Shown here piece by piece: positions 3,316-12,843 of a DNA stretch of 12,843 bases (positions within the stretch are counted from its first letter, which is position 1; each line of letters begins with the position of its first letter). The translations under genes were made by a program, and so were the position numbers. Source of the stretch: Ignavibacteria bacterium. Its GTDB lineage: Bacteria > Bacteroidota > Ignavibacteria > Ignavibacteriales > Melioribacteraceae. The stretch is from positions 1-12,843 of the forward strand of contig DAIEQT010000225.1 in assembly GCA_027347545.1 (NCBI GenBank). Reading direction: 5' to 3'. Under the pieces are notes generated by a model that was not told where the DNA came from, made no database searches, and saw nothing but the letters and a program-made list of their open reading frames with translations.

Positions 3316-3798
3316 TTAAGGACGCTCCCGTCCTATGAACCTTTCCCTTCCTAATAGAAACTGAACTGCTCTTACAACATTTTTCTCTATTGCAGCTTCA
3401 CTTTTTAGATTAGAAATGTATCTAACAATTTCGTTTTGCCGGGAAGGACTTAAACTGTTGAACACTTTTTTGGCTTTTACATTTTGTGATAAAGCAGTTT
3501 CAAGTTTTGGATTCATTAAAACCGTTTTCTCAGAAGGATCAAACTCAATCTTAACAGTTATCGTATCCCCAACTTTTTTGTTAGCTGCTTTCAGCATTGG
3601 TCCATTTATATAAAGCCGCCAGTCTCCGCTATATTTTACAAGCGTCTGAGTGAAATCGTGTCCATCTATAGTTACCTTAACACGAATTGGACCCTTCGTT
3701 TTATTAGCTTGTTTTTGAATACCCGACAAAACACTTGCCGGTAAGAATACAAATGGGTTTATGCCAATAATATCAATCTTAGCTTTGAATGTATTCAC
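3316..3798 (-). CDS. DUF1905 / YdeI-OmdA family protein
   Basis: The 160-residue protein has an N-terminal beta-rich DUF1905 domain (about residues 1-88; FVFLPASVL near 17-24 and the VKVTIDGHDF strand near 40-49). A short helical region related to the YdeI/OmdA bacteriocin-resistance domain follows (about 98-155: LETALSQN, FNSLSPSRQNEIVRYI). Proteins with this pairing are common in Bacteroidota, but their biochemical role is not established. The start codon is GTG at 3798: an in-frame TAA lies 18-20 bases upstream of it and no ATG occurs in between. No Shine-Dalgarno site is visible. The last codons and the stop fall next to a 6-bp hairpin (3319-3334). A -7-like element lies in the short gap to the next gene upstream, so it may be transcribed alone. 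Confidence 0.85.
   Translation of the reverse strand: MNTFKAKIDIIGINPFVFLPASVLSGIQKQANKTKGPIRVKVTIDGHDFTQTLVKYSGDWRLYINGPMLKAANKKVGDTITVKIEFDPSEKTVLMNPKLETALSQNVKAKKVFNSLSPSRQNEIVRYISNLKSEAAIEKNVVRAVQFLLGRERFIGRERP
3319..3334. repeat. Short hairpin at the 3' end of the DUF1905 gene
   Basis: AGGACG and CGTCCT form a perfect 6-bp stem around a 4-base loop. On the minus strand it covers the last codons before the TAA. No T-run follows. It could protect the 3' end of the mRNA or be chance; similar GGACGGGAGCGTCC palindromes are familiar to me as dispersed repeats in other genomes. Confidence 0.35.
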
Positions 3799-3855: not shown

Positions 3856-4887
3856 TTATAATCCCTCTCGTAAAAACTTTGGCTCTTCAAGAGTTAGCAT
3901 AATTGATATGCGGTGTGTATCGGGCAATCTTTCTGTTTCAGATTGGCTGAAGCGCGCATACGAATAATCCACTTGGAGTTTTGGTAAGAACAACCCGGCG
4001 CCAACGGTAAACTGTTTTACATCGCTGTATCCGGCTCGTACTGCAAAAAGATTTTTGAACTTGTATTCGAGTCCGGCGTGAGCATCAATGCTAACCGGAC
4101 CAACATTAAACATGGAAGCGGTTTTACGGTTTTCAAATCTCAAATCTAAATCGAGTGCGGGAAGAATGGTTCCGCCTAAAGCTGAGATTGCATAAGCTGC
4201 ACCAACTTTTGCAGCTGGAGTAATCAATTCGTTTCGTCCGGTACTCCAAGCTTCCAAAGTTGTTGTTATATCTTGCACAGTTGCACCAAGATGCAAATTT
4301 TCCATCGGCATGTAATAAGCGCCAATATCAAAGCCAATTCCAAACGCGCTGGCTTCGGCAATATCGCGCTTAATAATTTTTACATTTGCGCCCCAGTAGA
4401 AATTTTCCGAGTGGCGCTTCGCAAAAGTTAGATAGAACGCCCAATCCGTGTTATTAAACTCCGTAATCTTTGAATAGTCAAGCCGGTCTGTATGAATATC
4501 TAAAATACCGTCACCGTTTGCATCGTAAAGCGCATTGCGTGTATCTGGAATTCCATCTACGCTAAGACGGATTATGCTCAAGCCAAAACTCATATCGTTT
4601 CCGTAAGGAATTGCCACGGCACCGTAATTATAGTTTACCAGGTTTCCAAAATGCTCTTCGTGCATCAAAGAAATTTGAGGGTAATTCATTCTGGCTAAGC
4701 CGGCTGGATTCCAATAACCGGCAGTAACATCGTTAACAATAGCAACGTGAGCGCCGCCCATTGCGGATGCTCGTCCGCCTGCACCGATTGATAAAAACTC
4801 GCCCCCATATTTGCCGATTACTGTTTGGGAATAACTTGTGGTAAGCAACAAGCCAAGAAAGAACATTGCAAACAATGATTTTTTCAT
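3856..4887 (-). CDS. PorV/PorQ-family outer membrane protein
   Basis: From ATG at 4887 the product has 343 residues and a clear signal peptide (MKKSLFAMFFLGLLLTTSYS-Q). The mature start (IGKYGGEFLSIGAGGRASAM, then a GYWNPAGLA motif) is characteristic of the PorV/PorQ family, FadL-like 14-stranded beta-barrels of the outer membrane. In Bacteroidota PorV works in type IX secretion and shuttles substrates to the attachment complex; many paralogues exist whose roles are unknown. A loop with DANGDGILD resembles a calcium-binding DxNxDG motif. The frame extends upstream to a TTG at 4953, but ATG 4887 is preferred: AAAGGA lies before it, the signal peptide begins there, and the predicted promoter would leave almost no leader before the TTG. 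No por genes of the secretion machine are nearby. Confidence 0.88.
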   Translation of the reverse strand: MKKSLFAMFFLGLLLTTSYSQTVIGKYGGEFLSIGAGGRASAMGGAHVAIVNDVTAGYWNPAGLARMNYPQISLMHEEHFGNLVNYNYGAVAIPYGNDMSFGLSIIRLSVDGIPDTRNALYDANGDGILDIHTDRLDYSKITEFNNTDWAFYLTFAKRHSENFYWGANVKIIKRDIAEASAFGIGFDIGAYYMPMENLHLGATVQDITTTLEAWSTGRNELITPAAKVGAAYAISALGGTILPALDLDLRFENRKTASMFNVGPVSIDAHAGLEYKFKNLFAVRAGYSDVKQFTVGAGLFLPKLQVDYSYARFSQSETERLPDTHRISIMLTLEEPKFLREGL

Positions 4888-4969
4888 TTCCGATTTTCCT
4901 TTACTGATTAAGACCGTAGAAAAGTCTATGTTCTTTCTCCTTGTTGGGTGCAATTATAAATCTTCTTTT

Positions 4970-7570: not shown

Positions 7571-7706
7571 TAGAACGCAGATGACACACCCGCCCGACTA
7601 CTCGCCTCGCTAAGACGAGTCGAAGCGGGCGTAGTTCGAGGCGGGGATTAAACGGATTTACGCTGATCAGCGATTATCAGTGTCATCCGCGTAATCAGCG
7701 TTCTAT
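7570..7706. repeat. Composite palindromic intergenic repeat between convergent genes
   Basis: The outer arms ATAGAACGC (7570-7578) and GCGTTCTAT (7698-7706) are exact inverted copies. A second pair, ATGACAC (7581-7587) and GTGTCAT (7680-7686), lies inside. The right half also holds a perfect 12-bp palindrome, CGCTGATCAGCG (7661-7672). The words GCAGAT, CGGATT and GCTGAT are reminiscent of dispersed repeats I associate with Bacteroidota genomes. The left arm starts at the last base of the hydrolase TAA and the right arm contains the TAG of the aminotransferase. It probably works as a bidirectional terminator or mRNA end. Copies elsewhere would define it as a repeat family; that needs the genome. 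Confidence 0.75.
7589..7646. repeat. GC-rich palindromic insert inside the repeat
   Basis: This 58-base block is far richer in GC than its surroundings. It opens with CCCGCC and closes with GGCGGG(G), continues inwards with GACTAC against GTAGTTC (one bulge), and contains further pairing arms (CGCCCG 7591-7596 with CGGGCG 7626-7631; ACTCG 7600-7604 with CGAGT 7616-7620). The bases on each side (ATGACACA and ATTAAACGG) read as one continuous repeat if the block is removed, so it looks like a second palindromic element inserted into the first. Confidence 0.6.
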
Positions 7707-8824
7707 TTCTTGAGAACATCTTTTAGAGAGTTCACGCAATAATCCACCAGCTTATCATTCGAGTTATAACCCATCAAACCAATGCGCCAAACTTTGCCAG
7801 CCAGTTCGCCAAGACCGGCACCAATTTCTAAGTTATGTTTTGTAAGAAGCTCCGTTCTAACTTTTGCTTCATCAACTCCTTCCGGAACTGCAATGGCTAA
7901 CAAATGTGGAATTCTTTCTTCGGCGGGAACAATTGGTTCGAGATACAATTCATCCTTTAACCGTTTAATTAATTTTGCGCTGTTCTCCTTGTGCCGCCGC
8001 CAGGCGTTTTCAATTCCTTCTTCTTTTAGAATGCGCAACGCTTCATGCAATCCGTAATATTGATTTGCCGGAGCCGTGTGATGATATGCTCGCTTGCCCG
8101 GTCCCTGCCAGTAACTTTCGAGCAAATTAAAATCGTTAAACCAACTTCTGATTGGAGTTTTCCGACTTTTGATATGGGCAACTGCTCTTTCACTAAAACT
8201 AACCGGCGACATTCCGGCAACACAAGCCAGACCTTTTTGCGAACAAGAGTAAACTGCGTCAAGCTTCCATTCTTCAACAAGAACATCTGTAGCGCCGAGC
8301 GAAGTAACAACATCTGCAATAACGAGCGCGTTATGTTTGTGCGCAATCTCCGAAAGAACTTTCACATTTGATAACGCTCCGGTTGAAGTCTCCGCATGAA
8401 CGAACGCTACAACTTTTGTATCCGGATTTGCATTCAGCGCATCTTCCAATTTTTGCGGATCGGTTGCTCTGCCCCAAGTTTCTTTAACAACAATTGCCTC
8501 TCCGCCAATCTTCTCAACTATTTGAACCATTCGGTTTGCAAAATAGCCGCCAACACAAACAACAACTTTGTCGCCGGGCTCAATCATATTTACCAAGCAC
8601 GATTCCATTCCTAGCGAACCGGGTCCCGATAAAACAAAAGTATGTTCGCTTTCAGTTTTAAATGTGTATTTAAGAAGCAACTTAATTTCATCCATCAACT
8701 CAATGAACTGCGGATCGAGATGACCGAGTGTTGGTTTGGAAAGCGCTTCTAAAACTTTTGGATGAACATTTGCGGGACCGGGTCCCATCAAAATTCTAGT
8801 TATAGGTTTGAATGAATTGCTCAT
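7703..8824 (-). CDS. Alanine/serine-glyoxylate aminotransferase (AGXT-like)
   Basis: The 373-residue protein is a fold-type I PLP enzyme of class V. PLP is expected on Lys197 (CSQKGL), with Asp171 (VIADVVTSLG) under the pyridine ring and Arg347 (KVWRIGLMGYN) holding the substrate carboxylate. MGPGPANV at 13-20, SGPGSLGMES at 66-75 and YHHTAPANQYYGL at 247-259 are typical of the AGXT/SGAT group. It moves an amino group from alanine or serine to glyoxylate, giving glycine. It is the last gene of a four-gene operon, 9 bases after the aldolase stop, with AAGGAAACC before its ATG. Next to a HOGA1-like aldolase, whose products are pyruvate and glyoxylate, it would detoxify the glyoxylate. The phosphonate and photorespiratory relatives are alternatives, but no such genes are nearby. 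Its TAG stop lies within the palindromic repeat. Confidence 0.93.
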   Translation of the reverse strand: MSNSFKPITRILMGPGPANVHPKVLEALSKPTLGHLDPQFIELMDEIKLLLKYTFKTESEHTFVLSGPGSLGMESCLVNMIEPGDKVVVCVGGYFANRMVQIVEKIGGEAIVVKETWGRATDPQKLEDALNANPDTKVVAFVHAETSTGALSNVKVLSEIAHKHNALVIADVVTSLGATDVLVEEWKLDAVYSCSQKGLACVAGMSPVSFSERAVAHIKSRKTPIRSWFNDFNLLESYWQGPGKRAYHHTAPANQYYGLHEALRILKEEGIENAWRRHKENSAKLIKRLKDELYLEPIVPAEERIPHLLAIAVPEGVDEAKVRTELLTKHNLEIGAGLGELAGKVWRIGLMGYNSNDKLVDYCVNSLKDVLKK

Positions 8825-8833
8825 ACGGTTTCC

Positions 8834-9718
8834 TTATAATAATCCGGCTTCTGTTAAAATATTTTTCAATAATTCTTTATCACTTTCTTGCAATGGCGAA
8901 AGCGGCAAGCGTGGTTCACCACCAAAATAGCCAAGCATATCAAGCGCTGCTTTAAGTCCGGCAACGCCATACTTAGCAGTTATTACTTTGTTAACCGGAA
9001 GCAATTTCTGCTGAAGCTTTAACGCTTCGGTATGATTTCCCTCTTCAACAAATTTCTGAATCCTTACACATTCATTAGGGGCAATGTTAGCCAGTGCTAG
9101 AATTCCGCCAACAGCACCAACACTTAAACTTGTATATAGAACCGAGCCGGTTCCGATAATTGTAGAAAAGTTTTTGTCTGTCATTGAAACAAGTTCGGCA
9201 GTCTGGCGTAAATTCTCAGCACTGTTTTTTATTCCCACAATGTTTGGATGCATTGAAAGCTTAGCAACAGTTTCCGCTTCAATATCTACACCGGTAAACT
9301 TTGGAACATTGTAGATAATTACAGGGATGCTTGTTCTATCAGCCACGGCAAAAAAGTATTTAATATATGCAGCCGGTTTCATTTCGGATTTGTAGAATGA
9401 CGGCGTAAGTATCAGCGCATAATCAGCTCCACGCTCTGCGGAATCATTAGTCAGCGAAATTGTATCTCTGACCGAATCACTTCCCGTTCCGGCAATTAAA
9501 AGTTTTTCTTCGGAAATATTTCTCTTAACTGCCTCTACCAATTTTAATTTTTCTTCGCGAGTTATAAAAACACTCTCGCCATTGGAACCCATTACAACGT
9601 AACCGCTTAACTCCGTTTTATTCCATTTAGATAAATTTTCGGCGAGTTTATCAAATGCTATTTCATCATTCAGAAATGGTGTAGCAATTGGGGGCATTAT
9701 GCCGTAAAGTTTTTTCAT
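8834..9718 (-). CDS. DapA-family aldolase, probably 4-hydroxy-2-oxoglutarate aldolase (HOGA1-like)
   Basis: The 294-residue protein is a class I aldolase of the dihydrodipicolinate synthase family: Schiff-base Lys164 (GIKNSAEN), Tyr136 (IIYNVP) and the carboxylate-binding GSNGE at 44-48. Three points argue against true DapA. GSNGE replaces DapA's GTTGE. The Arg that binds aspartate semialdehyde in DapA (NVPSRTG) is Phe141 here (NVPKFTG). The segments GYVVMGSNGE, MHPNIVGIKNS and GLKAALDMLGYFGGEPRLPL correspond closely, as I remember it, to human mitochondrial HOGA1. That enzyme splits 4-hydroxy-2-oxoglutarate into pyruvate and glyoxylate, the last carbon-cleaving step of hydroxyproline breakdown. 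The neighbours agree: a proline dehydrogenase-family gene lies 12 bases upstream and an AGXT-like aminotransferase 9 bases downstream. AAGGAATTAAA precedes the ATG. N-acetylneuraminate or sugar-acid lyases are less likely alternatives. Confidence 0.85.
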   Translation of the reverse strand: MKKLYGIMPPIATPFLNDEIAFDKLAENLSKWNKTELSGYVVMGSNGESVFITREEKLKLVEAVKRNISEEKLLIAGTGSDSVRDTISLTNDSAERGADYALILTPSFYKSEMKPAAYIKYFFAVADRTSIPVIIYNVPKFTGVDIEAETVAKLSMHPNIVGIKNSAENLRQTAELVSMTDKNFSTIIGTGSVLYTSLSVGAVGGILALANIAPNECVRIQKFVEEGNHTEALKLQQKLLPVNKVITAKYGVAGLKAALDMLGYFGGEPRLPLSPLQESDKELLKNILTEAGLL

Positions 9719-9730
9719 TTTAATTCCTTT

Positions 9731-10660
9731 TTAAGAGAACATGTTCTTTAATACAAACCAAACGTTTGCCGGGCGCTCGGCAAGGCGACGCATATACCAA
9801 GGATACCAAAATTTGCCGTAGCTAATTAGAACGCGCATTGTGTAACCACGATCGACTAAATCTTTTTGCTTTTCTTTTTTGATTCCATAGAGCATCTGGA
9901 ATTCCAACTTATCCTTACGAATATTATTCTGCTTAGACCACTTAATTAACGAGTAAACTATGTTCTCATCGTGCGTTCCAAAAGCGACACGTATTTTATC
10001 TTCGCCGGCTGCGGCTAAAAGAATTTTTGCCAGATTCGTATAATTCTCATCTACATCCTTCTTTTTTGCAAAGACAATTTCCGGGGATTCTTTATACGCA
10101 CCTTTCACCAGACGAATATTAGCGCCGATCTCAATCAACTCTTTAATATCTTTTTCTGTGCGAAACAGATATGCTTGCAAACATAGACCGACATTATCAA
10201 TTTCATTTTTTATTTTCTTGTAGAACTCAATAGTCTTTTGTGTGTAAGCGCTGCCTTCCATATCAATCCAAACTACATTACCAAGTTTCTCTTTTGCTTT
10301 CTGAGCGATCTGCTTGAAGCGGTCATGAGTTTCTTCTTCGGATAAATCAAAGCCAAGCTGAGTTAGTTTGAGAGAAATTTCTATGTTGAGTTTTTTTTCG
10401 GCAACGCTGTCTATCAACTTTAAGTATTTTCCGCAAACCTCACAGCCTTCATCTAAATTTGTGATATTCTCGCCGAGATGTGTAAAAACGGTTGGAATTC
10501 CGAGTAAATCGAAACGGCTGGCTGCCTTGAGAGCATCCTCCGAATTTTCACCGGGCATAAATTTTTTAACGGCTTTTTTTACAAACTTCCATGAGGGCAC
10601 TTTCCCCCTCATTCGTTTATTTTCCGACATCCACAAAAGAACAGTACGTGAGAAACTCAT
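9731..10660 (-). CDS. Proline dehydrogenase family FAD enzyme, possibly hydroxyproline dehydrogenase
   Basis: From ATG 10660 the protein has 309 residues, the size of monofunctional bacterial PRODH (a FAD beta/alpha barrel). Family marks are Lys98 in SLKLTQLGFD, Asp133 in WIDMEGS, Arg183 and Lys186 in IRLVKGAY, His230 in FGTHDEN, FQMLYG at 254-259, and the substrate-carboxylate pair Arg291-Arg292 with Glu295 in MRRLAERPANVWF. PRODH oxidises L-proline to pyrroline-5-carboxylate and passes electrons to quinone. Thirteen residues before the Arg pair, where proline-specific enzymes have Tyr (Tyr540 of E. coli PutA), this one has Leu278 (RVLISYG). The same Tyr is replaced (by Ser) in mammalian PRODH2, which prefers hydroxyproline. 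With the neighbours this suggests hydroxyproline as substrate. ATG 10660 is chosen over TTG 10663 because AAAGGA is spaced for it. No ALDH domain is fused. Confidence 0.9.
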   Translation of the reverse strand: MSFSRTVLLWMSENKRMRGKVPSWKFVKKAVKKFMPGENSEDALKAASRFDLLGIPTVFTHLGENITNLDEGCEVCGKYLKLIDSVAEKKLNIEISLKLTQLGFDLSEEETHDRFKQIAQKAKEKLGNVVWIDMEGSAYTQKTIEFYKKIKNEIDNVGLCLQAYLFRTEKDIKELIEIGANIRLVKGAYKESPEIVFAKKKDVDENYTNLAKILLAAAGEDKIRVAFGTHDENIVYSLIKWSKQNNIRKDKLEFQMLYGIKKEKQKDLVDRGYTMRVLISYGKFWYPWYMRRLAERPANVWFVLKNMFS

Positions 10661-10703
10661 CAAGTTCCTTTCGTTTTATTTTGATAAAACTTTTTGAGGA
10701 TTT

Positions 10704-11756
10704 TTAACGAAGAATAAATCCTTTTCCCATCGGATCATCCGGGTTTATATAAAATGTATTTTTACCGGTGATGAAAGCATTACCCTCAACTTCCGGAATG
10801 ACGGCATCGTACTCGCCAAACTTTGTTTCTTCGATAATCTTTGCTGAAAACTTCGTTCCAATAATACTTTCAATTACCATTGGAGTGTTGAATGTTAATT
10901 CTTTCTTTGTGTAATGTAACGCAGCCCGAGCACTTACTCCGGTTCCGGTTGGACTTCTATCAACTTCACCTTCAGCGAAGATACAAACATTTCTACTGCA
11001 TGTACCTTCAGATAGCGGTGCACCGTAAAATATTGTTCCGTATAAAAAGCTTAGATCGTCATCAAACGGATGTTTGATCGCAAAGTTTTTCATTACCGCG
11101 CGTTTAATCATCATGCCTTTTTCAATCAACTCTCTAAATTCACTCTCGTGCATTGTAAGCCCAAGCTGATCTGCTTTTACAAAAGCATAGAAAGCGCCGC
11201 CGAAAGCGACATCAAATTTAATCTTGCCGAGAGATGGAACATCAACTATTTGATCTTGCAACAAGACAAAAGATGGCACGTTATGAAAGTAAACTGACTC
11301 AACCTTTCCGCTCTTAATTTTTGCGTAAGAAGTAATCAGCCCGGCAGGTGAATCAATTTTGATTTGCGTAACCGGCTCAACCATTTCGAACATTCCGGTT
11401 TCCAAAACGACAGTTGTAACAGCAATTATTCCATGCCCGCACATTGTACTGTAGCCTTCGTTGTGCATAAAGATTACGCCAAAGTCTGCTTCGTTGGAAA
11501 CGGGAGGAGTGATTATACAGCCGTACATATCTGCATGACCGCGCGGTTCAAACATTAAGGCGGTTCTGTAATGATCAAGGTTTTCCTTCATGTAACGGCG
11601 CTTCTCTAAAATGGTCGCTCCTTTAATTTCCGGCAAACCGCTTAAAATAATTCTTAGCGGTTCGCCCGCTGCATGAGCATCAATTGTTTCTATTTCCAGC
11701 CAGTCGTCCGGATGATTCCAGTCTGCTATTTTTTTGAAGTGATTAGTAAAAGACAT
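10704..11756 (-). CDS. Proline racemase-fold enzyme, probably trans-3-hydroxy-L-proline dehydratase
   Basis: The 350-residue protein is a full-length member of the proline racemase family. The first catalytic Cys is kept (Cys106 in STMCGHG) but the second is Thr270 (DRSPTGTGVSAR). Proline racemase and 4-hydroxyproline 2-epimerase need both Cys; the Cys/Thr pair marks trans-3-hydroxy-L-proline dehydratases such as human L3HYPDH (Cys104/Thr273). These remove water to give pyrroline-2-carboxylate, which a reductase turns into proline. HNEGYSTMCGHG, at 98-109, is also typical. The gene heads a run of four genes on the minus strand, 43 bases before the dehydrogenase, with GGAGAG about 11 bases before its ATG. 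Its presence implies that the cell meets 3- and 4-hydroxyproline together, as in collagen. The reductase for its product is not in the window. Confidence 0.9.
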   Translation of the reverse strand: MSFTNHFKKIADWNHPDDWLEIETIDAHAAGEPLRIILSGLPEIKGATILEKRRYMKENLDHYRTALMFEPRGHADMYGCIITPPVSNEADFGVIFMHNEGYSTMCGHGIIAVTTVVLETGMFEMVEPVTQIKIDSPAGLITSYAKIKSGKVESVYFHNVPSFVLLQDQIVDVPSLGKIKFDVAFGGAFYAFVKADQLGLTMHESEFRELIEKGMMIKRAVMKNFAIKHPFDDDLSFLYGTIFYGAPLSEGTCSRNVCIFAEGEVDRSPTGTGVSARAALHYTKKELTFNTPMVIESIIGTKFSAKIIEETKFGEYDAVIPEVEGNAFITGKNTFYINPDDPMGKGFILR

Positions 11757-11860: not shown

Positions 11861-12151
11861 CTATTCGTAATAAACCGGCTCACCGAGTTCCTTGAATGAG
11901 AACTTTGCAAGAATATGGTGACCATCAAAATCAATTACACGCAAATAGTCTTCTTGTTTTACATCTTCCATCACAGCATCATAGTGATGACCGTACTTTT
12001 GTTTAGCTAGATATTCGGGGATTTCGAAAGCGATAAATTTTTTGATTCCCTTTGAATGCAATCTGTTAATGAGGTAAGGATTTGTTAGAGAGTCATAAGT
12101 AGTAAGAATTACGATTGGACCTGAACCGGTGAAATAAATACCAGCTTTCAT
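11861..12151 (-). CDS. Conserved-looking 96-residue protein of unknown function
   Basis: I do not recognise a named family. The protein is cytoplasmic, with no signal peptide or membrane segment. It looks like a small alpha/beta domain: a first strand with GSGPIVILTTYDSL (9-22), a helix (NPYLINRLHSKGIKKF), a second strand FIAFEIPEYLAKQ, a HHYDAVMEDVK stretch around 55-65, then VIDFDGHHILAKFSF and an ELGEPVYYE end. The His pair and acidic residues could bind a ligand or metal, but nothing proves it. The ORF is convincing as a gene: AAAGGAGG, a full match to the anti-Shine-Dalgarno sequence, sits 6 bases before the ATG, and a sigma-70-like promoter lies about 70 bases upstream. It lies between an M24 peptidase gene and the hydroxyproline operon, which is the only hint to its role. 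Confidence 0.75.
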   Translation of the reverse strand: MKAGIYFTGSGPIVILTTYDSLTNPYLINRLHSKGIKKFIAFEIPEYLAKQKYGHHYDAVMEDVKQEDYLRVIDFDGHHILAKFSFKELGEPVYYE

Positions 12152-12330: not shown

Positions 12331-12843
12331 TCAAATTTTGTTTGAAGCGAAATCCTCAACATCTTCAACTGCTTTCGGTATTGGCTTTCCAAGAACACGG
12401 CTTCCGTTTTTCAGAACAACAACATCATCTTCAATTCTAATTCCGCCAAATCCTCTGTATTCATTTACCTTATCGTAGTTAATAAAATCTGTATGCTTCT
12501 TTTCACCTTGCCATTTATCTATCAAAGTAGGGATGAAATACAATCCCGGTTCAACCGTTAACACAACTCCGGATACAAGCGGTTTTGCATAGCGCAAAGA
12601 TTTAAGACCAAATTGTGTGCTGCGTTTTAGTTTTTCATCATAGCCTAAATTGTTTTCGCCATAATTTTCCATATCGTGAACATCGAGACCGAGCAAGTGT
12701 CCGAGTCCGTGCGGAAAGAATAAAGCGTGAGCACCCGCTTCAACTGCGGATTTTGTGTTTCCTTTCATTAAGCCAAGTGCTTTCAAACCATCAACCATTA
12801 CCTCGGCACATTTAAGATGTACCGACTTGTAAGTAACCTTTGG
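12331..12843 (-). CDS. M24-family Xaa-Pro peptidase (prolidase/aminopeptidase P), C-terminal part
   Basis: The frame is open from the right edge to the stop at 12331, giving the last 171 codons; the N-terminal domain and the first metal-binding Asp residues are outside the window. The visible part is the pita-bread catalytic domain of M24B peptidases: PHGLGHLLGLDVHD contains the metal-binding and proton-transfer His residues, TVEPGLYF has the first metal Glu and GGIRIEDDV the second. Such enzymes need two metal ions and cleave Xaa-Pro bonds in dipeptides (prolidase) or at peptide N-termini (aminopeptidase P). The in-frame ATG at 12798 is an internal Met, since codons upstream (for example VTYKSVHLKCAEV) continue the family pattern. 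It lies upstream of a hydroxyproline-degradation operon and may release proline and hydroxyproline for it. A promoter in the gap downstream suggests a separate unit. Confidence 0.92.
   Translation of the reverse strand, partial: PKVTYKSVHLKCAEVMVDGLKALGLMKGNTKSAVEAGAHALFFPHGLGHLLGLDVHDMENYGENNLGYDEKLKRSTQFGLKSLRYAKPLVSGVVLTVEPGLYFIPTLIDKWQGEKKHTDFINYDKVNEYRGFGGIRIEDDVVVLKNGSRVLGKPIPKAVEDVEDFASNKI

Follow-up and report, generated by a model that had tools for sequence, protein, structure and literature searches.

Does a bacterium carry, in one operon, the oxidative hydroxyproline route that is known from mammals? The mammalian 4-hydroxyproline pathway consists of PRODH2/HYPDH, P5CDH, AspAT, HOGA1 and AGXT, and the bacterial epimerase route of 4HypE, cis-4-hydroxy-D-proline oxidase, Pyr4H2C deaminase and KGSA dehydrogenase. 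The question is raised by a stretch of 12,843 nucleotides from the Stygiobacter-like (Ignavibacteriota) draft genome of an Ignavibacteria bacterium (contig DAIEQT010000225.1; hereafter the window), for which an earlier note had proposed the mammal-type route. What we read are the genes present, their residue patterns, their linkage and their trees; every enzyme activity and metabolite flow is inferred from these. We consider it quite probable that the operon uses hydroxyproline of collagen-type peptides, its core being a second proline dehydrogenase, an aldolase like HOGA1 and an aminotransferase like AGXT.

Gene content and neighbourhood

Four minus-strand ORFs lie at 10704-11756, 9731-10660, 8834-9718 and 7703-8824, and their coordinates leave gaps of only 43, 12 and 9 bases, the close packing that the earlier note had described. 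Their Pfam matches are Pro_racemase (378 bits), Pro_dh (116), DHDPS (199) and Aminotran_5 (100), respectively, and the active-site signatures that had been claimed for each gene were indeed found in all four proteins. Between the first of these genes and a prolidase gene lies a 96-aa ORF (11861..12151, minus strand) that has no Pfam or NCBIfam match in the search of window proteins; a comparison of cluster loci, in which ORFs down to 90 aa were considered, showed a relative only in genome G001, at the corresponding position. The window gave no hit in searches for Rfam families and tRNAs, and since promoter-like sites were not above shuffled sequence (9 versus 11.1) we claim no promoter. Terminator-like sites numbered 8 versus 4.4 in shuffles, with seven of the eight inside genes; the eighth (7593-7577) is on the same strand, about 110 bases beyond the aminotransferase gene.

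The window ends in the prolidase gene (12331..12843, minus strand), of which it holds the C-terminal 170 residues of a prolidase/aminopeptidase P-like M24 peptidase (Pfam M24), truncated at the contig end; in G001 the corresponding stretch of the protein, residues 295-464, is 96% identical. This end overlaps exactly, over 141 bases, with contig C299 of the same genome, which encodes prolidase residues 1-341 together with the glycyl-radical 4-hydroxyproline dehydratase HypD. The HypD gene and an ORF resembling the activase of G001 thus stand directly upstream in the window's genome, and genes of the radical route sit beside those of the oxidative route, so that the glycyl-radical route, previously set apart as a bacterial alternative, belongs to the same cluster. 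That route forms P5C by radical dehydration and requires neither HYPDH nor HOGA. The genome of Stygiobacter electus 09-Me has the operon and no HypD match, and no intact HypD was seen in 7 of the 19 genomes with a HOGA-type aldolase. Counting against the oxidative reading, an 11.4-kb contig of G002, a member of the same genus whose genome is 77% complete, has HypD, prolidase and dehydratase and lacks dehydrogenase and aldolase.

A HOGA1-like aldolase

The third gene (8834..9718, minus strand) encodes a putative 4-hydroxy-2-oxoglutarate aldolase of the DHDPS superfamily, 294 aa long, with active-site residues Ser45, Asn46, Tyr136, Lys164 and Ser166. Riedel et al. described the HOGA set Ser77/Asn78/Ser198. 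Lys164, Tyr136 and Ser45 match the HOGA Schiff-base Lys196, Tyr168 and Ser77, and Asn46 and Ser166 match Asn78 and Ser198, which E. coli DHDPS does not have. Of 58 genomes, 19 encode a HOGA-type protein with the full Ser/Asn/Ser set, which occurs at none of their 26 other PF00701 places, the residues of the four most distant copies (L161, L163, L166 and L167) having been read from a poor alignment. The Ser198 equivalent alone is not exclusive, being carried by several other PF00701 copies. At the place of human HOGA Tyr140, contributed by the neighbouring monomer, the window aldolase has Phe108; relatives have Phe or Tyr here and Phe is a conservative change, but we therefore call the protein HOGA1-like rather than a proven HOGA.

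Among solved structures human HOGA1 (3s5n/3s5o) is the best relative, at 224 bits against 159 for the next, and in a tree built without the fragments L121 and L115 (L015 and L022 are one gene fetched twice) human HOGA1 nests among bacterial HOGA-like proteins in a broad clade from which DapA is separate. The suggested counterpart of HOGA1 is borne out by this tree and the residue set, as far as sequence can tell, and the aldolase would belong to the same subfamily as the mammalian enzyme. We did try the Ser/Asn/Ser set by itself as proof of HOGA and rejected it: at 22 of 80 loci, which belong to other phyla and do not fall in the operon clade, Ser/Asn/Ser (or Thr) occurs although the stretch fetched around it shows neither a dehydrogenase nor other hydroxyproline genes, and so the residue set alone does not prove the substrate.

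A second proline dehydrogenase with an altered pocket

The second gene (9731..10660, minus strand) encodes a second proline dehydrogenase paralog, our proposed hydroxyproline dehydrogenase, of 309 aa if translation starts with the ATG at position 10660 (a TTG one codon further upstream opens the mechanical ORF). According to work cited in PMC3718742, Tyr540 of PutA underlies its preference for proline over hydroxyproline, and Tyr540 and Tyr552 are positioned around the substrate (PMC10651016). At these places the operon protein has Leu278 and Trp288, with Arg291 and Arg292 retained, so that Tyr540, the loss of which we took as the mark of a hydroxyproline dehydrogenase, is replaced by Leu. Leu/Trp is found in all 18 operon dehydrogenases of the 58-genome set, and Tyr/Tyr in all 56 readable non-operon copies, namely 18 housekeeping copies and 38 of 38 from other genomes; the G016 copy (L179) is a fragment short of both positions, and G002 has no proline dehydrogenase match. 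Wider sampling by tblastn gave the same picture, with Leu at the Tyr540 place in 52/52 dehydrogenase-linked loci and both Leu and Trp in 52/52 aligned rows (the window and 51 loci; the partial L112 was left out of alignment and tree).

The operon dehydrogenases form a single clade to which none of the lineage's 18 housekeeping copies belongs, and are second copies alongside the housekeeping paralog in the same genomes; the best solved relative is Thermus proline dehydrogenase (2ekg, 199 bits). Mammalian PRODH2 carries Ser at the Tyr540 place, whereas the operon protein is a bacterial-type monofunctional PRODH with a Leu/Trp pocket. Where the earlier note saw a counterpart of human PRODH2, it is most likely a specialisation that arose in parallel among the proline dehydrogenases of bacteria.

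The aminotransferase and the racemase-family protein

The last gene (7703..8824, minus strand) encodes an AGXT-like class V aminotransferase of 373 aa (Aminotran_5). Its Lys197 and Arg347, which we take to be the PLP-binding and substrate-carboxylate-binding residues, align with those of 1vjo and 2huf, as in AGXT-type enzymes, and the AGXT-like 1vjo is the best solved relative (364 bits). We propose that it turns glyoxylate into glycine, in which case the last step of the mammalian pathway would also be encoded in the operon. It counts against this reading that a close AGXT is absent in G021 and that G025 has only a 54-residue piece.

Gene 1 (10704..11756, minus strand; 350 aa) has the catalytic pair Cys106 and Thr270; in the available text of PMC4364671, a Cys-Thr pair marks trans-3-hydroxyproline dehydratase and Cys-Cys the epimerase. 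Its best solved relative by sequence is 6r76 (509 bits) and its best NCBIfam match is NF045511, at 417 bits below the 540-bit equivalog cut-off, for which reason we name it dehydratase-like. The earlier note had made it a counterpart of L3HYPDH; the likeness to a Cys-Thr 3-hydroxyproline dehydratase stands, but the protein has no place in the 4-hydroxyproline route, since L3HYPDH-type enzymes act on trans-3-hydroxyproline in a side branch to proline (PMC8779045, in the part available). The Cys-Thr type is common to that branch and gene 1, but no pyrroline-2-carboxylate reductase was seen in the window, and the gene 1 family finds no match whatever in six of the 19 genomes with a HOGA-type aldolase.

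Co-occurrence and alternative explanations

Were the grouping accidental, it should not be conserved in relatives, yet it recurs across the family, and we therefore do not regard it as chance. The Leu-type dehydrogenase adjoins the aldolase in 18 of the 19 HOGA-type genomes and is found in none of the 39 others (Fisher value 4e-14, which ignores shared ancestry); the remaining genome, G037, has the aldolase without a Leu-type dehydrogenase or close AGXT, which counts against the oxidative reading. Around the 52 dehydrogenase-linked loci, AGXT was seen in 37, P5CDH in 21, and HypD or 3-hydroxyproline dehydratase in 20; the 80-locus set shares 17 contigs with the other fetched set, and the two are not independent. 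Related clusters also contain peptidases and a peptide transporter.

One may nevertheless consider other explanations. That the aldolase is simply the lysine-pathway DapA of this lineage, grouped by accident with an ordinary proline dehydrogenase, would fit the absence of a second PF00701 protein in G000 and in the 99% complete G001, G003, G004 and G005, and NCBIfam dapA does score the aldolase at 195 bits, close to the 206 cut-off. It is still below that cut-off, it has Ser/Asn/Ser instead of the Thr/Thr/Ala of DapA and Phe141 at the Arg138 place, and it branches apart from DapA; on these grounds we set the identity aside. Moreover, G021, G025, G048, G055 and G056 also carry a Thr/Thr/Ala copy elsewhere, no PF00701 match was obtained from 25 of the 58 genomes, of which several are 99-100% complete, and the operon dehydrogenase, with its altered pocket, comes in addition to a housekeeping one, all of which makes this reading highly improbable. 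Extremely improbable, in our view, is that the aldolase is the Pyr4H2C deaminase of the epimerase route, which likewise employs proline racemase- and DHDPS-superfamily proteins, encoded near each other according to the portion of PMC4113996 available. The catalytic residues differ, gene 1 being of the Cys-Thr rather than the Cys-Cys type, and no epimerase, D-amino-acid oxidase or ketoglutarate semialdehyde (KGSA) dehydrogenase was found among the window proteins searched, so that this candidate too was set aside. A classical-looking cluster does occur in the relative G037, with an epimerase (576 bits, cut-off 376), a protein that resembles D-amino-acid dehydrogenase but scores under the cut-off, and a DHDPS-family member that has Thr/Leu/Ser and is 27% identical to the window aldolase.

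The peptidases and transporter of related clusters would also fit a cluster in which HypD and the 3-hydroxyproline dehydratase serve the use of proline peptides and hydroxyproline. The substrate of the dehydrogenase would then be proline or some other imino acid, and that of the aldolase a 4-hydroxy-2-oxo acid of another kind, as the HOGA-like relatives away from hydroxyproline genes in other phyla might suggest. We think this unlikely, because it leaves unexplained why the remodelled dehydrogenase, the HOGA-type aldolase and the glyoxylate-type aminotransferase travel together, also in the genomes without intact HypD (7/19).

A proposed oxidative route

In the oxidative route that we prefer, the window would be the downstream half of a hydroxyproline operon. 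Prolidase would release proline and hydroxyproline, and the specialised dehydrogenase would convert trans-4-hydroxyproline to 3-hydroxy-pyrroline-5-carboxylate, from which P5CDH would yield 4-hydroxyglutamate. An aminotransferase would then give 4-hydroxy-2-oxoglutarate, to be split by the HOGA1-like aldolase into pyruvate and glyoxylate, the latter becoming glycine through the AGXT-like enzyme. Gene 1 would take trans-3-hydroxyproline, and the upstream HypD would provide a second, oxygen-sensitive route to P5C. The proposed chemistry and step order are identical to those of the mammalian pathway; the differences are that the genes form a bacterial operon and that P5CDH lies outside the window, elsewhere in the genome (inside the cluster in some relatives). 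The claim of a mammal-type route in one operon is well supported by residues, tree, co-occurrence and neighbourhood, and falls short in that the window encodes neither P5CDH nor the 4-hydroxyglutamate aminotransferase. Two enzymes alone, HYPDH and HOGA, are peculiar to hydroxyproline breakdown according to the text available of PMC8779045, and the operon contains one candidate for each.

A more specific version, in which a bacterial hydroxyproline dehydrogenase of its own arose via the Tyr to Leu/Trp pocket, the aminotransferase of the operon moves the amino group of 4-hydroxyglutamate to glyoxylate in a closed loop, and HypD serves when conditions are anoxic, is a tentative one that we hold to be doubtful; if true, one 4-hydroxyglutamate would give pyruvate and glycine without an outside amino donor. 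A bacterial HYPDH-HOGA operon was undescribed in open-licence titles and abstracts among the matches listed, which is weak evidence of absence, and PMC12899673 and PMC11278836, in the parts available, describe other matters than this oxidative operon route.

If the oxidative reading is true, hydroxyproline oxidation, thought of as an animal process, would also be encoded in a bacterial operon, with bacterial counterparts of enzymes that are at fault in primary hyperoxaluria. The dehydrogenase would then offer a clean case of parallel pocket remodelling, and these bacteria would possess a route from collagen-type peptides to glycine and pyruvate.

Gene order and extent of the cluster

The gene cluster is real and conserved. 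Four minus-strand genes lie at the coordinates, and with the gaps (43, 12 and 9 bases), that an earlier note had claimed: a dehydratase-like gene (gene 1, 10704-11756), a dehydrogenase (9731-10660), an aldolase (8834-9718) and an aminotransferase (7703-8824), belonging respectively to the proline racemase, proline dehydrogenase, DHDPS and class V aminotransferase families. The source draft genome is 75% complete, and the nearest named aldolase, 91% identical to that of the window, is from Stygiobacter sp. (Melioribacteraceae, Ignavibacteriota).

The operon extends beyond the window (contig C232). The window's right end falls inside a prolidase gene and overlaps the end of another contig of the same genome, C299, by exactly 141 bases. 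C299 carries, in the same direction as the operon, prolidase residues 1-341, the trans-4-hydroxyproline dehydratase HypD (1305 bits, cut-off 1100) and an activase-like ORF that reads like the activase of the related genome G001; a P5CDH fragment lies on the opposite strand at the contig's distal end. G001 has on one contig, in the same order, activase-like (320 bits, below its cut-off of 425), HypD, prolidase, a 96-aa ORF, dehydratase, dehydrogenase, aldolase and aminotransferase. Because a curated score assigns HypD to hydroxyproline, the neighbourhood indicates hydroxyproline independently of the mammalian reading. Some related clusters also include P5CDH, a peptide transporter of the POT family or a further peptidase (a second M24 or an S37 enzyme).

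The window's own 96-aa ORF (11861-12151) matched no Pfam or NCBIfam family, and lies between the prolidase and dehydratase genes, as does its G001 counterpart. On C299 (locus L074; 382-1245, minus strand) a sensor histidine kinase-like ORF, a possible regulator, separates the P5CDH fragment from the activase-like ORF, and a similar ORF adjoins P5CDH in G003. A PorV/PorQ family protein, linked to type IX secretion, is encoded at 3856-4953 of the window (139 bits, cut-off 90), with no sign of a connection with the operon.

The aldolase and the dehydrogenase

Human HOGA1 is the aldolase's best solved match (224 bits vs 159 for the next protein). Passages of Riedel et al. (PMC3188589) assign HOGA catalysis to Lys196, Tyr168 and Ser77, and describe Asn78 and Ser198 as residues found in HOGA alone; the window aldolase has equivalents of all five, but Phe108 in place of human Tyr140. 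In the tree, human HOGA1 and bacterial HOGA-like proteins share one branch (100/99) separate from DapA, although the long branch of HOGA1 makes its placement among Chloroflexota rows unsure. The five residues and the tree agree with the proposal that this is a HOGA1 counterpart, with a predicted activity. DHDPS-family proteins encoded near proline racemase-family genes are described as Pyr4H2C deaminases in part of Zhao et al. 2014 (PMC4113996). An epimerase-type cluster in the same family, L069 (G037:C38), which served as internal control, contains a 4-hydroxyproline epimerase above cut-off and D-amino-acid dehydrogenase-like, DHDPS-family and aldehyde dehydrogenase-like ORFs.

The 58 related genomes contain 46 PF00701 places, of which 20, distributed over 19 genomes, are HOGA-type, with the Ser/Asn/Ser set of HOGA1 (the G006 gene is split across two contigs, one half missing the initial stretch); none of the remaining 26 has the whole set (15 Thr/Thr/Ala, 11 other combinations). 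No PF00701 match, and so no recognisable DapA, was found in 25 of the 58, several of them 99-100% complete.

According to portions of two papers, proline in PutA is surrounded by Tyr540, Tyr552 and Leu513 (PMC10651016), and Tyr540 has a role in preferring proline to hydroxyproline (Ostrander et al. 2009, cited in PMC3718742). Proline dehydrogenase was found in 57 of the 58 genomes, with a second copy, adjoining the HOGA-type aldolase, in 18. All 18 operon copies have Leu at the position of E. coli PutA Tyr540 and Trp at that of Tyr552, the housekeeping copies of the same genomes have Tyr at both, and the Arg555/Arg556 equivalents are retained in 36/36. Copies from the remaining genomes are Tyr/Tyr in all 38 that cover both positions, a count outside which the G016 fragment falls, as it stops short of them. 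PRODH2 has Ser at the Tyr540 position and the operon enzyme Leu, so the residue governing selectivity appears to be lost in both, through different substitutions.

In the best 80 of 213 aldolase loci, a dehydrogenase lies within 2.5 kb in 52, and every one has Leu. The window and 51 of these 52 loci form one dehydrogenase clade (100/99), all Leu and Trp, separate from the 18 housekeeping copies; in the aldolase tree, all 52 dehydrogenase-linked rows, the window among them, fall in one clade of 57 (99/99). The fetched stretches of the 52 loci, many of which end at contig ends, contain AGXT (37), P5CDH (21), prolidase (19), HypD (12) and dehydratase (11). The other 28 of these 80 loci comprise five inside the operon clade, one fragment (L121) and 22 outside it in other phyla, which limits the residue set alone as proof. 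An AGXT-like gene is near two of the 22 (47% and 28% identity), and neighbours of the Bacillota loci resemble, by sequence reading rather than family search, a TRAP-type transporter and dehydrogenases. L145, L146, L149, L143, L155 and others, HOGA-like with Ser/Asn/Ser or Ser/Asn/Thr and from other phyla, have no hydroxyproline genes in the fetched stretches around them; perhaps this branch acts on another 4-hydroxy-2-oxo acid.

Co-occurrence and alternative routes

On co-occurrence in relatives, which the earlier note proposed as a check, the Leu-type dehydrogenase is present in 18 of 19 HOGA-type genomes. The exception, G037, has its aldolase beside dehydratase, transporter and peptidases, and a separate epimerase-type cluster. 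The other 39 genomes have a Tyr/Tyr dehydrogenase (37), a fragment only (G016) or none found (G002), and none shows a second copy, the two G036 rows being pieces of one Tyr-type gene. Full-length AGXT (57-100% identity) occurs in 16 of the 58, every one HOGA-type; G025 has a 54-residue piece, and no close match was found in G021 or G037.

Gene 1 was proposed as an L3HYPDH counterpart. Its Cys106/Thr270 pair is of the dehydratase type (PMC4364671, in part). Its score against NF045511 (417 bits) is below the cut-off of 540, and no pyrroline-2-carboxylate reductase, which its product would need, was seen within the window. The dehydratase is optional, since HOGA-type G006, G008, G025, G048, G055 and G056 have no Pro_racemase match. 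At L077 (G030:C17) and L068 (G037:C6) a 3-hydroxyproline dehydratase-like gene, POT transporter and M24 and S37 peptidases occur without the Leu-type dehydrogenase, as if this module were a separate imino-acid peptide unit.

HypD is above cut-off in 17 of the 58 genomes, 11 of them HOGA-type; it and the operon are on separate contigs in G003, G007, G037, G039, G042 and G056, and the G017 copy is cut by a contig end. Intact HypD was not found in seven HOGA-type genomes (G004, G006, G021, G025, G033, G048 and G055), where the oxidative route may be the sole 4-hydroxyproline route, unless another exists. At L035 (G006:C169), 3336-3434, just upstream of prolidase, a 33-residue piece 64% identical to the HypD C-terminal end is likely a remnant, as though the radical route had been lost and the oxidative core kept.

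Of the suggestion that a mammal-type route is encoded in one operon, the conserved, linked cluster stands, but neither P5CDH nor an aminotransferase for 4-hydroxyglutamate was found in the window; P5CDH is on C291 of the same genome (796 bits). Some JGI gene calls label the aldolase 4-hydroxy-2-oxoglutarate aldolase, so that name for the single gene has precedent; among the matches listed, we did not find such a bacterial operon described in open-licence literature, and what is added here is the interpretation at operon level together with the residues of the dehydrogenase. The best reading, which we regard as quite probable from sequence comparison, is a hydroxyproline operon whose predicted mechanism would be a bacterial version of the route that animals use.
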